64,000 nucleotides of DNA. Origin: Rouxiella badensis. GTDB lineage: Bacteria; Pseudomonadota; Gammaproteobacteria; Enterobacterales; Enterobacteriaceae. The notes beneath the pieces are model-generated. The model ran no database searches, was not told where the DNA came from, and saw only the letters and a program-made list of their open reading frames with translations. Of the stretch, positions 13,799 through 32,476 are shown in pieces. Position 1 is the first letter of the stretch, and the number at the start of each line of letters is the position of its first letter. The stretch lies in assembly GCF_002093665.1 (NCBI RefSeq), contig NZ_MRWE01000006.1, positions 1 through 64,000 on the forward strand, given 5' to 3'. The position numbers and the translations under genes were made by a program.

Positions 13799-15181
13799 AT
13801 GTTAACCCCAGAACTCCTCTCGCCCGCCGGTACGCTCAAGAATATGCGTTACGCCTTTGCCTACGGTGCCGACGCCGTGTACGCCGGTCAGCCGCGCTAC
13901 AGCCTTCGGGTCCGCAATAACGAATTCAATCATCAGAATCTGGCGCTCGGTATCGCCGAAGCGCATGCGCTGGGCAAGAGATTTTACGTAGTCGTCAACA
14001 TCGCGCCGCACAATGCCAAGCTGAAAACCTTTCTGCGCGATCTCCAGCCGGTGATCGACATGCAGCCTGACGCATTGATCATGTCAGATCCGGGCCTGAT
14101 CATGATGGTGAGAGAGGCTTTTCCACAGATGGAGATACACCTGTCGGTGCAGGCCAATGCGGTAAACTGGGCAACGGTCAAATTCTGGCAGCAGATGGGG
14201 CTCGGCCGCGTCATTCTCTCTCGTGAACTGTCGCTGGAGGAGATAGCCGAGATCCGCAAGCAGGTTCCTGAAATGGAGCTTGAGGTGTTTGTGCATGGCG
14301 CGCTTTGCATGGCGTATTCCGGCCGTTGTCTCCTTTCAGGCTACATCAATAAACGCGATCCGAATCAGGGGACCTGCACCAACGCCTGCCGCTGGGAATA
14401 CAAGGTTCAGGAAGGCAAAGAGGATGAGGTCGGCAATATCGTCCACCAGCACCCGCCTGTCGCCATTAAGCAAATTGAAACGGTCACGCCAACCTTAGGC
14501 GCAGGGCAACCAACGGACCGCGTATTTATGCTCGAGGAAGCCCTCAATCCGGGTGAGCACATGAGTGCGTTCGAAGACGAGCACGGCACCTATATTATGA
14601 ACTCCAAAGATTTGCGGGCCATCGAACACGTTGCCAGCCTGACGCAGATGGGCGTGCATTCATTAAAAATTGAGGGTCGCACCAAGTCGTTTTATTACTG
14701 TGCCCGCACGGCGCAGGTCTACCGCCGCGCCATTGACGATGCCGTCGCCGGTAAGCCCTTTGACCCGACGCTGCTCACCACGCTAGAAGGCCTCGCCCAT
14801 CGCGGCTACACCGAGGGTTTTCTTCGTCGTCACGTGCATCAGGCGCAGCAGAATTACGACTATGGTTTCTCCGTCAGCAACAGACAGCAGTTTGCCGGCG
14901 AATTCACCGGACAACGCGGCAGTGGGCGTAACGAAGGCTGGGCCGAGGTTGACGTCAAAAATCGTTTCTCGGTCGGCGACAGCATCGAAATCATGACCCC
15001 CGAAGGTAACGTGCAGTTTTTCATACAACAGATGCATAACAAGAAAGGGGAAGACATCGACGTCGCACCGGGAAACGGCCACTTTGTTTATTTGCCGGTG
15101 CCGCAGGAAATGCCTTTGGCCTTCGCGATTCTATTAAGGAATCTGCTGGATAATACTAATACCCGTAATCCAAACCTTTAA
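13799..15181 (+). CDS. yegQ: tRNA uridine-34 hydroxylation protein, U32 peptidase-like
   Basis: A 460-residue U32 family protein, matching E. coli YegQ/TrhP (453 residues), which makes 5-hydroxyuridine at position 34 of several tRNAs using prephenate-dependent chemistry. The start MLTPELLSPAGTLKNMRYAF and the cysteine-rich segment GALCMAYSGRCLLSGYINKR with NQGTCTNACRW (iron-sulfur ligands) are present, as is SLKIEGRTKSFYYCA. There is no sign of peptidase activity in the family despite the name. It is monocistronic with a terminator at 15189-15218. The extra length is at the C-terminus and in the segment around residues 215-235. Confidence 0.92.
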   Translation: MLTPELLSPAGTLKNMRYAFAYGADAVYAGQPRYSLRVRNNEFNHQNLALGIAEAHALGKRFYVVVNIAPHNAKLKTFLRDLQPVIDMQPDALIMSDPGLIMMVREAFPQMEIHLSVQANAVNWATVKFWQQMGLGRVILSRELSLEEIAEIRKQVPEMELEVFVHGALCMAYSGRCLLSGYINKRDPNQGTCTNACRWEYKVQEGKEDEVGNIVHQHPPVAIKQIETVTPTLGAGQPTDRVFMLEEALNPGEHMSAFEDEHGTYIMNSKDLRAIEHVASLTQMGVHSLKIEGRTKSFYYCARTAQVYRRAIDDAVAGKPFDPTLLTTLEGLAHRGYTEGFLRRHVHQAQQNYDYGFSVSNRQQFAGEFTGQRGSGRNEGWAEVDVKNRFSVGDSIEIMTPEGNVQFFIQQMHNKKGEDIDVAPGNGHFVYLPVPQEMPLAFAILLRNLLDNTNTRNPNL

Positions 15182-15188
15182 TTAAATC

Positions 15189-15218
15189 AATAAACACCGT
15201 TTCAATGCGGTGTTTATT
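15189..15218 (+). terminator. Terminator after yegQ
   Basis: Perfect 11-bp stem AATAAACACCG / CGGTGTTTATT, loop TTTCAATG, ending in TTTATTTCC. It begins 7 bases after the yegQ stop codon. Confidence 0.85.
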
Positions 15219-15234
15219 TCCACTTTAGATGCAA

Positions 15235-15256
15235 AAACTAGAATTTGATCACAATA
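15235..15256 (+). promoter_or_regulatory. Candidate CRP site upstream of the CyaR-like RNA
   Basis: A 22-bp site with an intact right half TGATCACA. It matches the CRP consensus at about 14 of 22 positions, including the right-hand TCACA; the left half is weak. Its centre (15245/15246) is about 43 bases upstream of the predicted start of the small RNA, near the class II spacing of 41.5. Confidence 0.5.
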
Positions 15257-15288
15257 CGGCTTCGGCCTTTCGGGTTAATATATTTCCC

Positions 15289-15377
15289 GCAGCAAGACCC
15301 GAATGGAAAAAAACCGTATAAAACAGTCACCACCTCTTCGCCGGCTCAAACACCCTTGAGCTGGCACTATTTTATTT
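15289..15377 (+). ncRNA. cyaR: Probable CyaR (RyeE) small RNA
   Basis: E. coli encodes the 87-nt, CRP-activated, Hfq-dependent sRNA CyaR immediately downstream of yegQ. At the same place here is a stretch of similar size with the CyaR-like core ACCACCTC (15329-15336), followed by a 10-bp terminator stem GCCGGCTCAA / TTGAGCTGGC (15340-15349 / 15356-15365, one G-U pair) with a C-rich loop and ATTTTATTT. A -10-like TAATAT is at 15276-15281 and a CRP-like site at 15235-15256. No competing ORF exists. The 5' portion is diverged from E. coli, so the exact 5' end is inferred. CyaR represses ompX, luxS, nadE and others in E. coli. Confidence 0.7.
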
Positions 15378-15594
15378 GTACCTTATCCCGTTTTTCCCTC
15401 CTCATTAATAATTAATTAACACCTTGCTAATTTAAAAATATATTAATAGTTAATGGCTCAGCTGTTTAATTACTGCGCAATTATTACCATTAATCTCAGG
15501 CCTGTTGGCGCTTTTCCTTGAAAATTCTTATGGCTATTAGTAACAATAATCATTTACTTTATAGCCATAGACTAAATTAAGCATGGAGGGTGCA

Positions 15595-16494
15595 ATGAAG
15601 GTTCAGACACAGGCACTGCTGATAATCAATGGAAAAGGTGCCAGCAATGAAGCCCTACGCGAGGCGGTGTACAACCTGCGAGCAGAAGGCGTAGAGCTTG
15701 CCGTTCGCGTCACCTGGGAGCACGGCGATGCCGCACGCTACGTGATTGAAGCCATTGAGCTCGGCGTTGAAACGGTGATTGCCGGCGGAGGTGATGGCAC
15801 CATCAACGAAGTCGCGAGCGCCCTTATCACCCATTCAACGGATTCGCGCCCTGCCCTGGGGATTATTCCACTTGGCACCGCCAATGACTTTGCCACCAGT
15901 TGCAGCATCCCAATTGAGATGGATCAGGCGCTGAAGCTCGCCGTTCAGGGCCGTGCGACGGATATCGATCTGGCGCGCGTCAACAACGAGCACTATTTTA
16001 TCAACATGGCGACCGGCGGTTTCGGCACGCGGATCACCACCGAAACGCCCGAAAAACTCAAGTCTGCGCTGGGGGGCGTTTCATACTTTATCCACGGCCT
16101 GTTGAGAATGGATACCCTCAAAGCCGACCGCTGCGAGATTACTGGCCCCGACTTCACATGGCAAGGCGATGCGCTGGTCATTGGCATTGGCAATGGACGT
16201 CAGGCCGGCGGCGGTCAGGTGATTTGTCCCGACGCACTGATCAACGACGGGCTGATACAGCTCCGCCTGCTGACGGCGGAAGAGCTGTTGCCATCGTTTC
16301 TGCGCAGCCTACTGAGCGACGAAGAGAACAAGAATATTCTCTCGGCCTCGCTGCCGTGGTTGGAAATCAATGCCCCTCACGATATGACCTTTAACCTCGA
16401 CGGTGAACCGCTCACCGGAAAGCATTTTCGCATCGACATCCTGCCAAATGCGCTACAGTGCCGCCTGCCGCCACACTGTGCACTGCTGGGGTAA
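15595..16494 (+). CDS. yegS: Lipid kinase YegS
   Basis: A 299-residue diacylglycerol-kinase-fold protein, the same length as E. coli YegS, which phosphorylates phosphatidylglycerol in vitro. The nucleotide-binding motif [14 protein letters not shown] is at about residues 62-75, with PLGTANDFA following and [16 protein letters not shown] in the C-terminal half. I place the start at the ATG at 15595, preceded by GGAGGG; an in-frame ATG at 15583 lies upstream of that site. In E. coli yegS also lies a short distance beyond yegQ and cyaR. A terminator overlaps its stop codon. Confidence 0.9.
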
Positions 16495-22668: not shown

Positions 22669-23553
22669 ATGACGGTCATTGACGCTTTATCTACGCCGCT
22701 GCAAAAACTCTACTACAATGCCCAAAATACGCTGCCGTTGTCTCATCTCGACGAAGAGAAGATCTGCCAGATTGCCCGCGATCTCGACAGCGTGGGCAGC
22801 GACAAAGAGCACTACGTCACCGGCTGGATGGCGCTCAATCCGGTGGTATTGATCCGCCGCTATCAAAACAAACGCGGCAGCGCCGACGGTATCGTATTCA
22901 CCCGCAGCAATCAGTACCGCCTGAGCGTGCAGTCGGTCATGTTTAGCATCCCCAAACCCTTACTGTGGATCACCTTTCGTCGCCGGCCAAGGACAATGAA
23001 AGTGATTACTTACAATCGTTTAGACACCACGCAGAATGGGCTTCAGCAATATCAAAATATTCAGGAAGACGAGGTTAAGGCGCGGCTTGAGGCCGACTGG
23101 CGCGAGCTGAATGATTATCTGGGGCTCGCCTGTTGGCAGCGGGAAAACGGCCAGCCGCTGTGGAACGCGTTGCAGGACAGCATCACGGCCGACAGGCTGC
23201 TCGGACTGTGCAATAGCCTGTTCTTCACCAACGGTAAGCTGCAAAAAGAGGGAGAGTTCGAGGGACTGTGGCACAAGGGGATGTTTATTGCCCGACGCAA
23301 CGACGGTGCGGCAGCGTTTATGCTGGCCTGGCAACATCCCGAGACCCACGAGGTGGCCAGCTATCTGTTTGAAATATTGAAAAAGAATACTGGCCCCACT
23401 CGCCTCAGGCTTTCACTTCGCCCCCACAAGCAGGAGAAGTTCTACCCGTTAAACCCCTTCGATGCGCAGCATCTACACGATGCGCTACAAATGTTTGAAC
23501 GGGCAGAAGGTGCCTTAGGCTGCTTTGAGCAACAGCGTCACCACCAGCGATGA
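22669..23553 (+). CDS. Conserved-looking protein of unknown function
   Basis: A 294-residue soluble protein that I do not recognise. It has no signal peptide or transmembrane segment. It is rich in charged and aromatic residues, with an Arg-rich stretch FRRRPRTMKV near residue 104 and several Trp residues in the second half. AGGAGA lies about eight bases before the ATG; an alternative GTG is immediately upstream. The composition and codon use resemble the neighbours, so I take it as a real gene. Its 3' end overlaps the convergent thiD gene by 16 bases. No context points to a role. Confidence 0.7.
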   Translation: MTVIDALSTPLQKLYYNAQNTLPLSHLDEEKICQIARDLDSVGSDKEHYVTGWMALNPVVLIRRYQNKRGSADGIVFTRSNQYRLSVQSVMFSIPKPLLWITFRRRPRTMKVITYNRLDTTQNGLQQYQNIQEDEVKARLEADWRELNDYLGLACWQRENGQPLWNALQDSITADRLLGLCNSLFFTNGKLQKEGEFEGLWHKGMFIARRNDGAAAFMLAWQHPETHEVASYLFEILKKNTGPTRLRLSLRPHKQEKFYPLNPFDAQHLHDALQMFERAEGALGCFEQQRHHQR

Positions 23554-24356
23554 AAATGGTGAACCGGGCCGATGCCCTCACCCACTTCCAGAGAGTCCGC
23601 CTGCTGCAACGCCTGCTGTAAATAGTCTTTGGCTGCGCTGACGGTGTCAATCCAGTTAGCTTTTCTCGGCCTGATTGCAGCCAGCGCGGCGCTGAGTGTG
23701 CAGCCAGTGCCGTGCGTATTACGGGTGGCAATGCGCGGCGCAGTAAAGCGTTCACGATAGTGAGCGGTCATTAACCAGTCAGGGCTTTCACTGTCACTCA
23801 GATGGCCTCCTTTCATCAATACCGCTTCACACCCCATCTCCAAAAGCGCTTCACCCTGGCGGCACATCTCACGCTCGTCGGTCGCGACGGCGCAGTCCAA
23901 CAGCGCCGCCGCCTCAGGTAGATTTGGCGTAATCAGCGACACCTGCGGCAACAGCCATTTACGCAGCGCCTCCACGGCGTCCGGCGTCAGCAGCGGGTCA
24001 CCGCTTTTTGCCAGCATCACGGTGTCCAGCACCACGTAGGCCGGAGCCTTTTCCAGCTTACGGTAATAGCGCAGCCGCTCTGCGACCACTTCCACCACCT
24101 GTGTGTTGGCCAGCATGCCGATTTTGGCGCTGTCAATGCGCACGTCGCTCAGCACCGAGTCGAGCTGTGCCCCCACGAATAGCGGATCAATGTGATAGAC
24201 CGACTGCACGCCACGGGTGTTTTGCGCCACCAGTGCGGTGATAACGCTGGTGCCATAGGCCTCCAGCGCGGAGAAAGTTTTCAGGTCAGCCTGAATACCC
24301 GCACCGCCGCTTGGGTCAGTGCCTGCAATGGTGAGCGCATTAATACGTCGGGTCAT
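23538..24356 (-). CDS. thiD: Hydroxymethylpyrimidine/phosphomethylpyrimidine kinase
   Basis: A 272-residue ribokinase-fold enzyme that phosphorylates HMP twice for thiamine synthesis. Family features: [20 protein letters not shown] at the N-terminus (substrate loop G-T-D-P-S-G-G-A-G), [11 protein letters not shown], the TPNLPEAA segment and the anion hole [15 protein letters not shown] with its catalytic Cys. Its ATG overlaps the thiM stop by four bases, so it is translationally coupled to thiM and thereby to the TPP riboswitch. In E. coli the order thiM-thiD is the same and the pair lies at 47 min. Confidence 0.93.
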
Positions 24357-25159
24357 AGCGCCCCTCCGTTAAGCTTTTCAGCATCAAGCAGATAGAGATT
24401 GTCCATAAATGCCGGCGTAAAGCTGCCCGGCCCCTTAGCCACCTCGCAGGCGAGCTCACCGGCGCGAGACATCACGCGGCAGGCCGCAGCCACGTTTGCC
24501 AAACGGTCGCCCGGCAAAGAGGTAAAAGCGGCAACCACGGCCGAGAGCGCACAGCCAGTGCCCACTACGCGGGTCATTAGCACATTGCCACCCGGCACTG
24601 ACACACTGTTTTCACCGTCGGTGACGTAGTCAATCTCGCCGGTGACCGCAATAATCGCACCGGTCTGGCGAGCCAAAGTTTGCGCAGCAGGCAGTGCGGC
24701 CAATGAAGTGTCGGCGCTGTCGACACCACGACCAGAAGCCGCCAGGCCGCTGAGCGCCATGATTTCAGACGCGTTTCCGCGGATTGCAGCAGGCTGAAGT
24801 CTGATAATTTCCTGACAAAACTCTGAGCGCCAGCTGAGTGCGCCGACGGCAACCGGATCAAGCACCCACGGCTTCTGCGCCTGGTTAGCGGCGTGAATGG
24901 CGGCAAGCATGGATTCGGCACGGGATTCGGTGAGCGTACCGACGTTCACCAGCAGCGCGCTGGCCATGGCGCTGAACTGCGCGGCTTCACGCGGGTCAAC
25001 CACCATCGCCGGAGAAGCCCCGAGCGCCAGAAGAACGTTCGCGGTGATCGACTGCACCACGTCATTGGTGATGCAATGCACCAGCGGAGAAGCTTGACGA
25101 AGATGTTGTAAGGCACTGGCGGCGTATGCGCCGGGAAAAACGGTAGGTCGAGTGGTCAT
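24353..25159 (-). CDS. thiM: Hydroxyethylthiazole kinase
   Basis: A 268-residue ThiM, the kinase that salvages the thiazole moiety of thiamine. Motifs: [27 protein letters not shown] at about 26-52 (C-I-T-N then A-N-x-x-L-A-L-G), [17 protein letters not shown] and the active-site GTGCALSAV. The ATG at 25159 has GGGAG only four bases upstream, and that site is paired in a hairpin that belongs to the riboswitch expression platform. First gene of thiMD. Confidence 0.93.
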
Positions 25160-25164
25160 AAAAC

Positions 25165-25199
25165 TCCCAACCGGCGATCAAGAAGGGGTACCGGTGGGA
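25165..25199 (-). promoter_or_regulatory. thiM Shine-Dalgarno sequestering hairpin
   Basis: On the minus strand TCCCACCGG (25191-25199) can pair with CCGGTTGGGA (25165-25174) with one bulged base. The GGGAG ribosome-binding site of thiM lies at 25164-25168 and is largely buried in this stem. This is the expected off-state of a translational TPP riboswitch. Confidence 0.7.
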
Positions 25200-25202
25200 T
25201 AC

Positions 25203-25285
25203 CACGACTTCCCTACGCTGGCATTATCCAGATCAGGTAATACGGGTATCTCTCAGCCTTCACAAAGAAGGGCACCCCGAGTCAT
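25203..25285 (-). promoter_or_regulatory. TPP riboswitch (THI element)
   Basis: On the minus strand the conserved elements appear in order: CGGGGTGCCC, GGCTGAGA, ACCCG, ACCTGATCTGGATAATGCCA and GCGTAGGGA, with closing helix P1 formed by GACT / AGTC. These are the hallmark sequences of the TPP aptamer. Binding of thiamine pyrophosphate would repress thiM-thiD, here by hiding the ribosome-binding site. Confidence 0.95.
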
Positions 25286-25566
25286 TGAAGCTAAGGGGTT
25301 AGCATAAGGGATGTAGGTGACTTACAGCAAGCTCTCTATTGCTCTCTCTCACGGCCTGTACCCACAATATACACGACATAAACCATCGCCGAAGCCTGCG
25401 GGGTTTTCGGTTAAATAAACAGTGGGTTAAGGGTTGGAAATAGCGTGCGGGTATTCTGGTTATTACGTTTTGGTCCTTAACAATGGCCTGCGCGAATACA
25501 GGTTTTTGAACGCCGCAAATCTTTCGAAATTGCGGCGTTTGATTATCTTGTCAGGACATTGGGGCG
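25286..25566. other. Intergenic region upstream of the thi riboswitch
   Basis: Contains the thiMD promoter region and the hairpin at 25509-25539. No gene is recognised. Confidence 0.45.
25509..25539 (-). terminator. Hairpin after the DUF1471-like gene
   Basis: Perfect 10-bp stem AACGCCGCAA / TTGCGGCGTT with an 11-base loop, 28 bases downstream of the stop codon. It lacks a long T-run on either strand, so termination is likely but not certain. Confidence 0.5.
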
Positions 25567-29775: not shown

Positions 29776-31194
29776 TTATGCGAGCGCACGCTGCTGTAAG
29801 GTTTTTACCGCCGCCATCGCGTCGACGCGCAGGGCGTCAAGGTCGAGGCCCGGCACGCTGTCGTTTTCGACAATCATGCGACCGTTGATCAGCAGGGCTT
29901 TCAGCGAGGCGCGTCCCCCGCAGGCCACCGGGCCAATGGCCATGTCGTGCAGCCCGAAGTAGCGCGGATCGTCGAGACGATAAACGGCGATATCGGCGAG
30001 CATGCCCGGCTGTAGCGTGCCGCTGCGCGATAACCCGAGGATTTGCGCACCGCCCGCACTCCCCCAACGCACCACGTCTTCGATGGTGGCGGCATCGGCT
30101 CCGCCTTCAAAGGTGCCGCCCTCGTAGCGCGGCTGTGCCAGCATGCCTTTACGTGCGCGCTGCAACAGCCACGCGGCGTGCGCCTCACTTTGCATATCCG
30201 CCGCCTCGTTGGAGGCCGCGCCGTCAACGCCGAGCGAAACTGGCACCCCAGCCTTTTCAAGCGCCAGCAGATCGGCAATGCCGCTGCCGAGTCGCCCGTT
30301 ACTTTGCGGACAGTGCGCGATCCCCGTGCGCGTCGCCCCTAACAAGGTGATTTCCTCCGGCAGCAGCTTGACCAGATGCGCGAACCAGACGTCACTGCCT
30401 AGCCAGTCATGCTCGGCGCAAAACTGAACCGGCGTCATGCCGAATTTGGCTCGGGCTGCGTCGAGATAGTCCACGGTTTCTGAGAGATGACTGTGCAAAC
30501 GAATACCCAAACGGCGTGCAAGCTTCGCCATCTCACGCAGCTGTGCACCCGGCGCAGAGTGCAGCAAGGTGGTCGGCGCCATCACCACGCGACGCAGCGA
30601 TTCGGGGCGCGAGTCGTGATAACGCCCGACCAGTCGTTCAACGTCAGTCATGTAGGCGTCGAAACCTTCCGGCCGCAGCGCCAGCGGCAGGTCCTGCTCA
30701 ATGGCGCGCGACTGGGTTGCTCCACCGCGACACAGCACGATGCGCATTCCCAGCGCTTCTCCCTCGCTAAAAATGATATCTGAGGTATCGAAAGGCATAT
30801 CCGGCCAATAAAGATAGTTATGGTCGGCCACGGTGGCGCAGCCGGAACGCAGCAGCTCAATCAGCCCAACGCGCACCGCCAGCCGAAAAGTGCTTTCGTC
30901 GAACGCCGCGCGAAAACGGTAAGGCGTTGCGCTCAGCCACGCGGTCAGACTCTGGTTCAGCCCCTGCGGCTCGCCTTTCAGCAGTGACTGAAACAGATGA
31001 TGGTGGGTATTAACCCATGCCGGGTACACCACGCAGTCGCGGGCATCGATGATGCGCTCGTCGGCCAGCGGGCTCAGTGCGCCCATTGCCTCGATAACGC
31101 CGTCGCGAATCCGCATGTCTGGCCCCGCATGGCGCGACGCCGCACCCGGCAGACCGGTGAGGATCGCGTGAGCATTTCTAATCAGCAGTGTCAT
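29776..31194 (-). CDS. Amidohydrolase, 8-oxoguanine-deaminase-like
   Basis: A 472-residue metal-dependent amidohydrolase of the TrzN/AtzA/guanine-deaminase group. Metal and catalytic residues are intact: His64 and His66 in NTHHHLFQ, His236 and Glu239 in LHSHLSE, His273 in FAHLV and Asp324 in GVDGAASNE. The C-terminal segment R-Y-F-G-L-H-D-M-A-I-G-P-V-A resembles 8-oxoguanine deaminases. Expected reaction: hydrolytic deamination of an aminopurine, aminopyrimidine or triazine. Spacing is 11 bases after the binding protein gene and 29 before the oxygenase gene, which indicates one operon. Confidence 0.85.
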   Translation of the reverse strand: MTLLIRNAHAILTGLPGAASRHAGPDMRIRDGVIEAMGALSPLADERIIDARDCVVYPAWVNTHHHLFQSLLKGEPQGLNQSLTAWLSATPYRFRAAFDESTFRLAVRVGLIELLRSGCATVADHNYLYWPDMPFDTSDIIFSEGEALGMRIVLCRGGATQSRAIEQDLPLALRPEGFDAYMTDVERLVGRYHDSRPESLRRVVMAPTTLLHSAPGAQLREMAKLARRLGIRLHSHLSETVDYLDAARAKFGMTPVQFCAEHDWLGSDVWFAHLVKLLPEEITLLGATRTGIAHCPQSNGRLGSGIADLLALEKAGVPVSLGVDGAASNEAADMQSEAHAAWLLQRARKGMLAQPRYEGGTFEGGADAATIEDVVRWGSAGGAQILGLSRSGTLQPGMLADIAVYRLDDPRYFGLHDMAIGPVACGGRASLKALLINGRMIVENDSVPGLDLDALRVDAMAAVKTLQQRALA

Positions 31195-31205: not shown

Positions 31206-32189
31206 TTAAGGTTCAACGTGCAGGCCCTGCACGATGTCTGTGGTGTAGGCCTGCTTCCAGTCAGTGTCGGCCTTGAGCAGACCGGCGTTGACCATAAAGT
31301 TTCGAGTTTTCTGCCAGCGCGCATCGGTCATGGTGCCCCAGCCCTGCGTTGCCGCGTCGCCGCCGTCAATCAGGTGATGCTGTTTAATCTGCGATACGCC
31401 CCAGGCCAGCAAATCGTCGGTCATCTTCGGATTATCTTTTTTGATCAAGGCATTGCCCGGTGCCGGATTCTGCAAATAGCTCACCCAGCCTTCCATCGAG
31501 GCGCGAACGAACTTTGCCAGTGCCTCTTTGCGGCTGGCAATCAGGTCAGGACGAGCGATCAGGATCCCGCCATACGGCGGATAACCGTGCTCGGAAAACA
31601 GGAAGAAGTTCGACTTTACGCCCGCCTTCTGCGCCTGAAACACCTCGGAACTGACGTAGGCCTGCTGCGCGACGTTGTCGTCGGCCACGAAAGGCTGAAT
31701 GTTGAAGGTGTAGGGGCGCGCCTGCGCGTCGGTGAGGTGATACTGCGCTTTCAGCCATGGCCACCAGGTGGATTGCCCCGAACTGGAGACCAGAATGGTT
31801 TTGCCTTTCAGGCCATCGAGCGAGGTGACGGAAGCGTGGGTCAGCAGACCCTGCGGGTCAAACTGGAAGGGTGCGGCGATAGCCTTGGCCGGAAAGCCAC
31901 GCTGCACGGCGTCGAGCAGCTGTAGGTCATAGCCGATAATTACGTCGGCGCGCTTGGCCAACAGCAACTGCATGCCGTTGACCTGCGGACCGCCAGACTG
32001 AATGCTGACGTCCAGCCCGTAGCGTTTGTAAATGCCGGTCGCCAGCGCCTGATAATATCCGCCCTGCTCGGCCTGAGCGTACCAGGACGTCAGCAGGGCA
32101 ATCTTTTCATCGGCCTGAGCGGCCTGCGAAAAGGCGCCAAGTAGCAGCGTGCCCAGAACACAGCATGACAGCGGCAATCGAGATGTCAT
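31206..32189 (-). CDS. ABC importer substrate-binding protein 1 (NMT1/THI5-like)
   Basis: A 327-residue periplasmic binding protein with a signal peptide (MTSRLPLSCC... cleavage near QAAQA). The mature start E-K-I-A-L-L-T-S-W-Y-A-Q-A-E-Q-G-G matches the NMT1/THI5 family, whose best-known members (ThiY, RibY) bind pyrimidine or flavin precursors. It is a paralogue of the protein at 37264-38241, similar over the entire length (e.g. GGPQVN, PYTF, QPF, YPPYG). It has no adjacent permease or ATPase on its own strand, so it probably shares the importer at 38238-39885. I prefer the ATG at 32189 (GGAG eight bases upstream) over 32195. Confidence 0.85.
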   Translation of the reverse strand: MTSRLPLSCCVLGTLLLGAFSQAAQADEKIALLTSWYAQAEQGGYYQALATGIYKRYGLDVSIQSGGPQVNGMQLLLAKRADVIIGYDLQLLDAVQRGFPAKAIAAPFQFDPQGLLTHASVTSLDGLKGKTILVSSSGQSTWWPWLKAQYHLTDAQARPYTFNIQPFVADDNVAQQAYVSSEVFQAQKAGVKSNFFLFSEHGYPPYGGILIARPDLIASRKEALAKFVRASMEGWVSYLQNPAPGNALIKKDNPKMTDDLLAWGVSQIKQHHLIDGGDAATQGWGTMTDARWQKTRNFMVNAGLLKADTDWKQAYTTDIVQGLHVEP

Positions 32190-32476
32190 TTTCATTGCTC
32201 CTCTCATTGTTGCCGAAGAGGGGCAAAGCAGACGCGGCTCAGCCTCCCATCGGCGCAAAGTGTGAAATGCGAAATGGTTGCTGAGCAATGTCCCGCGCGG
32301 AGTTCCCGCACTGACCGCTTCTACTCACTTTCAGTTATACAAAAACGGTGCCAAGTTGACCAATGCCCTATCCATGCCCTTTGTGCGGAAATTGCCCCCC
32401 AAAAAACCCGGCCCACTCTGCAACCTTTGATTCAATGCAGAGCAGCAGGCACCAAAATAGTGCACCTGGACGACGG

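Follow-up and report, generated by a model that had tools for sequence, protein, structure and literature searches.

A CyaR small RNA gene between yegQ/trhP and yegS in Rouxiella badensis, with an altered seed region and terminator loop

Does the spacer behind yegQ/trhP in Rouxiella badensis encode the enterobacterial small RNA CyaR (RyeE; Rfam RF00112), which E. coli K-12 carries at the same place, and would such an RNA still act on ompX? We studied a stretch of 64,000 nucleotides (the window), for which an initial annotation had proposed a CyaR homologue at the syntenic position downstream of yegQ. Judged by its sequence, the stretch between yegQ/trhP and yegS is the Rouxiella orthologue of CyaR, an ordinary RNA of a known kind. 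Very probably the gene works as cyaR does, with an RNA that would be activated by CRP-cAMP, held by Hfq and silence the outer-membrane protein gene ompX by pairing at its Shine-Dalgarno sequence. The locus consists of the following features:

13799–15181, + strand: yegQ/trhP, the upstream syntenic neighbour (NCBIfam TrhP equivalog, 829.8 bits)
15189–15218, no strand assigned: stem-loop, scored on the - strand, with probable use on the + strand
~15289–15377, + strand: CyaR small RNA, both ends predicted (Rfam RF00112 and model R1)
15595–16494, + strand: yegS lipid kinase, the downstream neighbour (longest open reading frame from 15583)

The order in the window is baeR, yegQ/trhP, cyaR and yegS. 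It matches that of E. coli in placing CyaR directly 3′ of yegQ/trhP on the same strand, and differs in the gene that follows, which is yegS in the window and a set of prophage remnant genes in E. coli. The longest yegS frame opens at 15583; the likelier start is 15595, with GGAGGGTG ahead of its ATG. The stem-loop at 15189–15218 probably terminates yegQ, separating it from cyaR. Rouxiella is placed in the Yersiniaceae, and among the matches listed for the YegQ protein, where records of the window genome itself may be missing, the nearest named relatives are Rouxiella aceris (G001; 89% identity) and Serratia sp. M24T3 (G005; 88%). Genome comparison assigns both to the genus of the window genome. 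In an unrooted yegQ tree the window groups with R. aceris at a support of only 0.41. Plasmid records searched with the cyaR region gave no match, and a literature search found no paper covering both Rouxiella and CyaR.

The Rfam test suggested by the initial annotation gave a divided answer. A scan of the window at gathering thresholds returned no CyaR, and only TPP and xanthine riboswitches passed. Aligned directly, RF00112 matches 15287–15371 over its full length (1–85) at 32.9 bits (E 2.4e-4 for 417 bases), short of the gathering score of 47 bits, a database inclusion rule rather than a biological feature. The low score does not mean that homology is absent: the genus has diverged in the 5′ half, in the sequences flanking the seed and in the loop of the terminator. 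The 47 bits were reached by 15 of 60 relatives and, at the syntenic place, by none of the six genus genomes (27.2–37.2 bits). Over the whole window genome (G000; 4.78 Mb, 72 contigs) the CyaR place is nevertheless the best RF00112 match, with E 6.6e-4 against 0.035 for the next. We also built a model, R1, from 30 CyaR loci found outside the genus, comprising E. coli K-12 and 29 of 61 trimmed loci located via yegQ, with no sequence of this genus; 18 of the 61 loci, E. coli and five of the six genus genomes made up alignment A2, from which M24T3 (G005) was omitted as nearly identical to G004. R1 aligns to 15290–15377 at 46.6 bits, with E-values (rough, as reported by the search tool) of 7.1e-10 in the window and 5.3e-8 over the genome, where the next place scores 22.4 bits (E 0.15). 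Both models rank the place after yegQ first in the genome, and R1 does so in all six genus genomes (42.5 to 56.9 bits). Chance would be a poor account of the CyaR-like features.

Candidate second copies in the six Rouxiella genomes were rejected as paralogues. Other places reach only ~16–27 bits with the Rfam model and at most 24.1 bits with R1, and most secondary R1 matches span model positions 56–88, the terminator. The highest other Rfam place in the genus (G003:C62:64763) scores 27.3 bits against 30.9 for the syntenic place of that genome, a small lead. The one such place whose sequence was read, G000:C9:19606, is a GC-rich terminator that follows a tRNA-like sequence. No second copy was seen in G004 or G005, where other places stay at or below 22.7 bits (R1) and 18.6 bits (Rfam).

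The two riboswitches in the window lie elsewhere on the - strand. The TPP riboswitch (25193–25289, 74.6 bits, Rfam) precedes reading frames 24353–25159 and 23538–24356, by eye thiM and thiD. The xanthine (NMT1) riboswitch (32278–32331, 62.3 bits, Rfam) sits just ahead of frame 31206–32288, by eye a periplasmic solute-binding protein, and near frame 29776–31194, which looks amidohydrolase-like.

Within and ahead of the RNA we recognize these elements:

15235–15256, + strand: CRP-like site AAAACTAGAATTTGATCACAAT, degenerate on the left and perfect on the right
15276–15281, + strand: -10 element TAATAT, with TANTAT at the same place in six of six genus genomes
15329–15336, + strand: seed ACCACCTC, which complements GAGGTGGT at the ompX Shine-Dalgarno sequence without a mismatch
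15340–15365, + strand: intrinsic terminator hairpin, 10 pairs (15340–15349 with 15356–15365), one of them G-U
15366–15377, + strand: interrupted U-rich tail ACTATTTTATTT, read from the sequence and the genus alignment

A CRP-like site is thus present upstream of CyaR at the sequence level. Its right half is a perfect TCACA, and its left half keeps two of the five letters of TGTGA; a weak left half also occurs elsewhere, as in the TAGAAnnnGATCACA of E. coli K-12. The half-site TAGAATNNGATCACA is kept in all six genus genomes by alignment, and G[AG]TCACA follows yegQ in 76 of 78 other-genus loci, a count for which, as for the other 78-locus motif counts below, the R. aceris and M24T3 loci (L009 and L010 of the set, respectively) were left out and the stretch after yegQ was scanned rather than compared by column. 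In E. coli the hexamer TATCAT is followed by 7 nt and the annotated 5′ G; in the window TAATAT is followed by 7 nt and G15289, so the RNA would start at about G15289. The distance from TCACA to the hexamer is 21 nt in E. coli and 22 nt in the window, and the centre of the CRP-like site, at 15245.5, lies ~43.5 bp ahead of the inferred start. With a 3′ end between ~15373 and 15377, the RNA would be about 85–89 nt long. The initial annotation's -10 element and CRP-like site at the right distance are therefore found, both conserved in the genus, and its ~89 nt, against 87 nt for E. coli CyaR, stands as a prediction by analogy with the E. coli 5′ end. The 5′ half aligns poorly with that of E. coli, in agreement with the divergence noted there.

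The terminator had been described as a 10-bp stem, and all ten pairs were recovered. Across 24 sequences, 99.6% of cells in the stem are paired, against 12–50% when the pairing is slid; four of the ten pairs have changed on both sides, and the covariation score is 0.301 against 0.02–0.09 for slid pairings. The loop reads ACACCC in the window, not TCTCCC (AACACCCTT where E. coli has ATCTCCCTT), and it is changed in every genus genome: ATCTCCCTT occurs in 70 of 78 other-genus loci and in none of the six. The U-rich tail lies where known Hfq RNAs carry the Hfq-binding end. In the window, unlike in E. coli, its U-tract is interrupted (ACUAUUUUAUUU), so termination and the grip of Hfq may be weaker.

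The claimed seed core, ACCACCTC, is present at 15329–15336. It recurs in 72 of 78 other-genus loci, and its RNA form ACCACCUC in four of the six genus genomes. What surrounds it has changed: the AGGAACC ahead of the E. coli seed is AGTCACC in the window, and CCTCCTT is CCTCTT. The usual AACC ahead of the seed (AACCACCTC) is found in 72 of 78 other-genus loci and, within the genus, only in R. aceris; AACC and the ATCTCCCTT loop are typical rather than definitional, being absent also from six and eight other-genus loci. In E. coli, Yersinia similis and Rahnella perminowiae, folding places the seed in an AGGA/UCCU-type hairpin, with a mean unpaired probability of 0.76 at 15, 25 and 37 °C. Both arms of this hairpin are altered in the window RNA (fold of 15288–15377, z -2.6), where no seed hairpin is predicted and the mean unpaired probability of the seed is 0.96–0.98; an open seed is therefore expected at every temperature. 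The corresponding predictions are 0.85–0.96 in G001, G002 and G003, and 0.73–0.83 in G004 and G005. New here, as read from these comparisons, would be that the predicted seed hairpin of other genera is gone in the window, that the usual terminator loop is altered genus-wide and that predicted pairing with ompX varies widely among the genus genomes, as described below.

Two relatives help to place these changes. Outside the genus, the 5′ half is most like that of CyaR loci of the Rahnella/Ewingella group (among L011–L024 and L041), which share with the window a CGCAA close to the start and a GAATG leading into an A-rich stretch, but keep AACCACCTCC and the ATCTCCCTT loop. In Yersinia pseudotuberculosis, CyaR levels depend on CRP and Hfq, and a mapped contact shows ompX GGUGGU shielded by CyaR ACCACC (PMC11795201). 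The same letter runs, a conserved seed and a variable 5′ end are found in the window. The 3′ tail UUCUU of the Yersinia RNA was inferred to close on a seed-region GGAA at 25 °C (PMC11795201). To judge from its letters, the window RNA, with neither a GGAA beside the seed nor a UUCUU tail, should lack this temperature switch; our folding, which gives the same 0.76 for Y. similis at all three temperatures, does not reproduce the published switch. In one further relative, Mixta theicola (L082), the seed-like block and the CRP-like half-site are both absent after yegQ, the sole such case among the 78 other-genus loci; cyaR may have been lost there, or the spacer replaced.

If the RNA acts as its parts suggest, CRP-cAMP would bind ~43 bp ahead of the start, and the ~89-nt RNA would be made in the absence of preferred sugars. 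The RNA would end at the intrinsic terminator, with Hfq holding its U-rich 3′ end, and the single-stranded ACCACCUC would pair with GAGGUGGU at the ompX Shine-Dalgarno sequence, blocking ribosome entry and promoting decay of the mRNA. CRP activation, Hfq dependence and ompX repression are what we infer from work on relatives, and with them repression of ompX by the window RNA when cAMP is high. Genes for hfq and crp are present in all six genus genomes, and CRP is 99% identical to that of E. coli. The ompX gene of the window genome was identified through its product, which shares 75% identity with the E. coli protein. The ompX leader contains GAGGTGGTTATG in all six genomes, and ACCACCUC exactly complements its first eight letters, giving eight contiguous exact pairs in the window, one fewer than in E. 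coli. The predicted CyaR:ompX duplex (24 nt around the seed) has an energy of -15.0 kcal/mol; the background, 51 gene starts among 52 genes called in the window alone by a crude ORF caller, has a mean of -8.3 (sd 3.0), with one start stronger. A nine-pair alternative, UCUUCGCCG with ompX UGGUGAAGG, was set aside because it includes G-U and needs the terminator stem to be partly opened.

The genus varies around this pairing. CyaR is found in all six genomes, and all six keep TAGAATNNGATCACA, TANTAT, a CCGCAGCAA that spans the start, GAATGRAAAARAAC and the stem of the terminator; beyond the terminator the sequences align poorly. G002 and G003 have the same eight ompX pairs as the window (-14.8 to -15.0 kcal/mol), and R. 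aceris has 14 contiguous pairs that cover the Shine-Dalgarno sequence and the start codon (-23.7 kcal/mol). G004 and Serratia sp. M24T3 have ACCAACUA in place of the seed but an unaltered ompX leader, and ompX regulation would accordingly not be universal in the genus. In the original register these two reach -4.5 kcal/mol, against -13.0 for the intact 8-mer; their best remaining match, a shifted UGGUCACC with GGUGGUUA (eight pairs, three of them G-U), reaches -7.0 and falls short of the background mean. When more of the ompX leader is included they give -11.0 kcal/mol, against -17.8 to -27.0 in the other four. Their OmpX is also the most diverged of the six, at 64% identity to E. coli against 75–77%. 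A tentative and rather doubtful extension of these observations is that CyaR has been retuned within the genus from a partly closed ancestral seed to an open one, and that the M24T3 branch has largely detached from ompX, acting mainly on other mRNAs or on none.

We also looked for further complementary sites. GAGGTGGT followed within 0–9 nt by ATG, the start codon scanned, occurs at 19 sites in the window genome, and only ompX was accepted as a gene start. Frames at the other 18 are short or seemingly internal to longer frames. Those at L148, L156, L161 and L163 have 63, 338, 63 and 161 codons, with 25–83 open codons upstream, a test that is weak alone since even the ompX frame has 32 open codons ahead of its start; L162 is a 56-codon frame opposite a longer one. 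Two sites lie off the start of a main gene: GAGGTGGTTANNTTAATG (L161, G000:C47:29128), with a short frame ~450 bp ahead of what is by eye speA, and GAGGTGGTAATG (L149, G000:C10:27842), with a 24-codon frame ~80 bp ahead of what is by eye wecA. Both have like-lettered counterparts in all six genus genomes, and CyaR might act on both as leader sites. For the seed of M24T3, a count of TAGTTGGT followed within 0–15 nt by ATG gave no lead, with 20 and 21 sites in G004 and G005 and 10–18 in the other four, fewer than a reversed-pattern control in each of the six genomes. The start region of yegS (15595) ranks third of 52 (the 51 window starts and ompX) by predicted duplex energy with the CyaR seed, at -13.7 kcal/mol, which raises the possibility that CyaR acts on the adjacent gene.

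The changes in the genus could also be read as decay: the RNA would still be transcribed, with constraint relaxed and ompX regulation being lost, furthest in the M24T3 pair. The terminator loop, standard in 70 of 78 other-genus loci, is altered in six of six genomes, AACC in five and the exact seed in two, and the U-tract is interrupted, all of which would suit a decaying gene. Yet all six genomes retain the CRP half-site, the -10 element, CCGCAGCAA, GAATGRAAAARAAC and the terminator stem, while the sequence beyond the terminator aligns poorly, and in R. aceris the match to ompX is longer, with 14 contiguous pairs. We therefore regard decay as quite unlikely beside a working, ompX-silencing CyaR.

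Readings in which the RNA is not simply CyaR fare worse. One would make it a dual-function RNA with a small peptide of 18 codons, from ATG 15303 to TGA 15357–15359, the stop lying in the terminator. The 18-codon frame is present in the window, G004 and M24T3, and a 20-codon frame runs to the terminator TGA in all 14 Rahnella/Ewingella-group loci (L011–L017, L019–L024 and L041; for example MQNKAPDYTRNHLLGQLNLP), but no clear Shine-Dalgarno sequence precedes the ATG in either the window or those loci. As read in the genus alignment, in R. aceris the frame stops at codon 5 and in G002 and G003 TGG replaces the stop; the frame crosses the seed in differing phases among genomes, so no peptide is kept; its end consists of letters that the terminator stem fixes. 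We rejected the peptide reading of 15303–15359 as very improbable because the frame is not kept among the genus genomes; the Rahnella/Ewingella frame is probably a by-product of constraint on the RNA. Still less probable is that there is no separate gene at all and that a second terminator or a 3′ fragment of yegQ mRNA resembles CyaR by chance. The place, ~108–196 bp after yegQ on the same strand, would suit such a fragment; yegQ, however, has its own stem-loop at 15189–15218, a conserved CRP-like site and -10 element stand between that stem-loop and the RNA, and R1, blind to the genus, finds the place at E 5.3e-8 over the genome.

The preferred reading, a Rouxiella CyaR that would act on ompX, extends a carbon-responsive small RNA to a genus in which a scan at the Rfam threshold misses it. 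It suggests that a stable promoter and terminator need not prevent change in parts of CyaR that are usually conserved, namely the seed flanks, the seed hairpin and the terminator loop. With pairing that ranges from extended to broken against a near-constant ompX leader, the genus would form a small natural series, in which the weight of seed pairing and of seed exposure in the regulation of ompX could be assessed.
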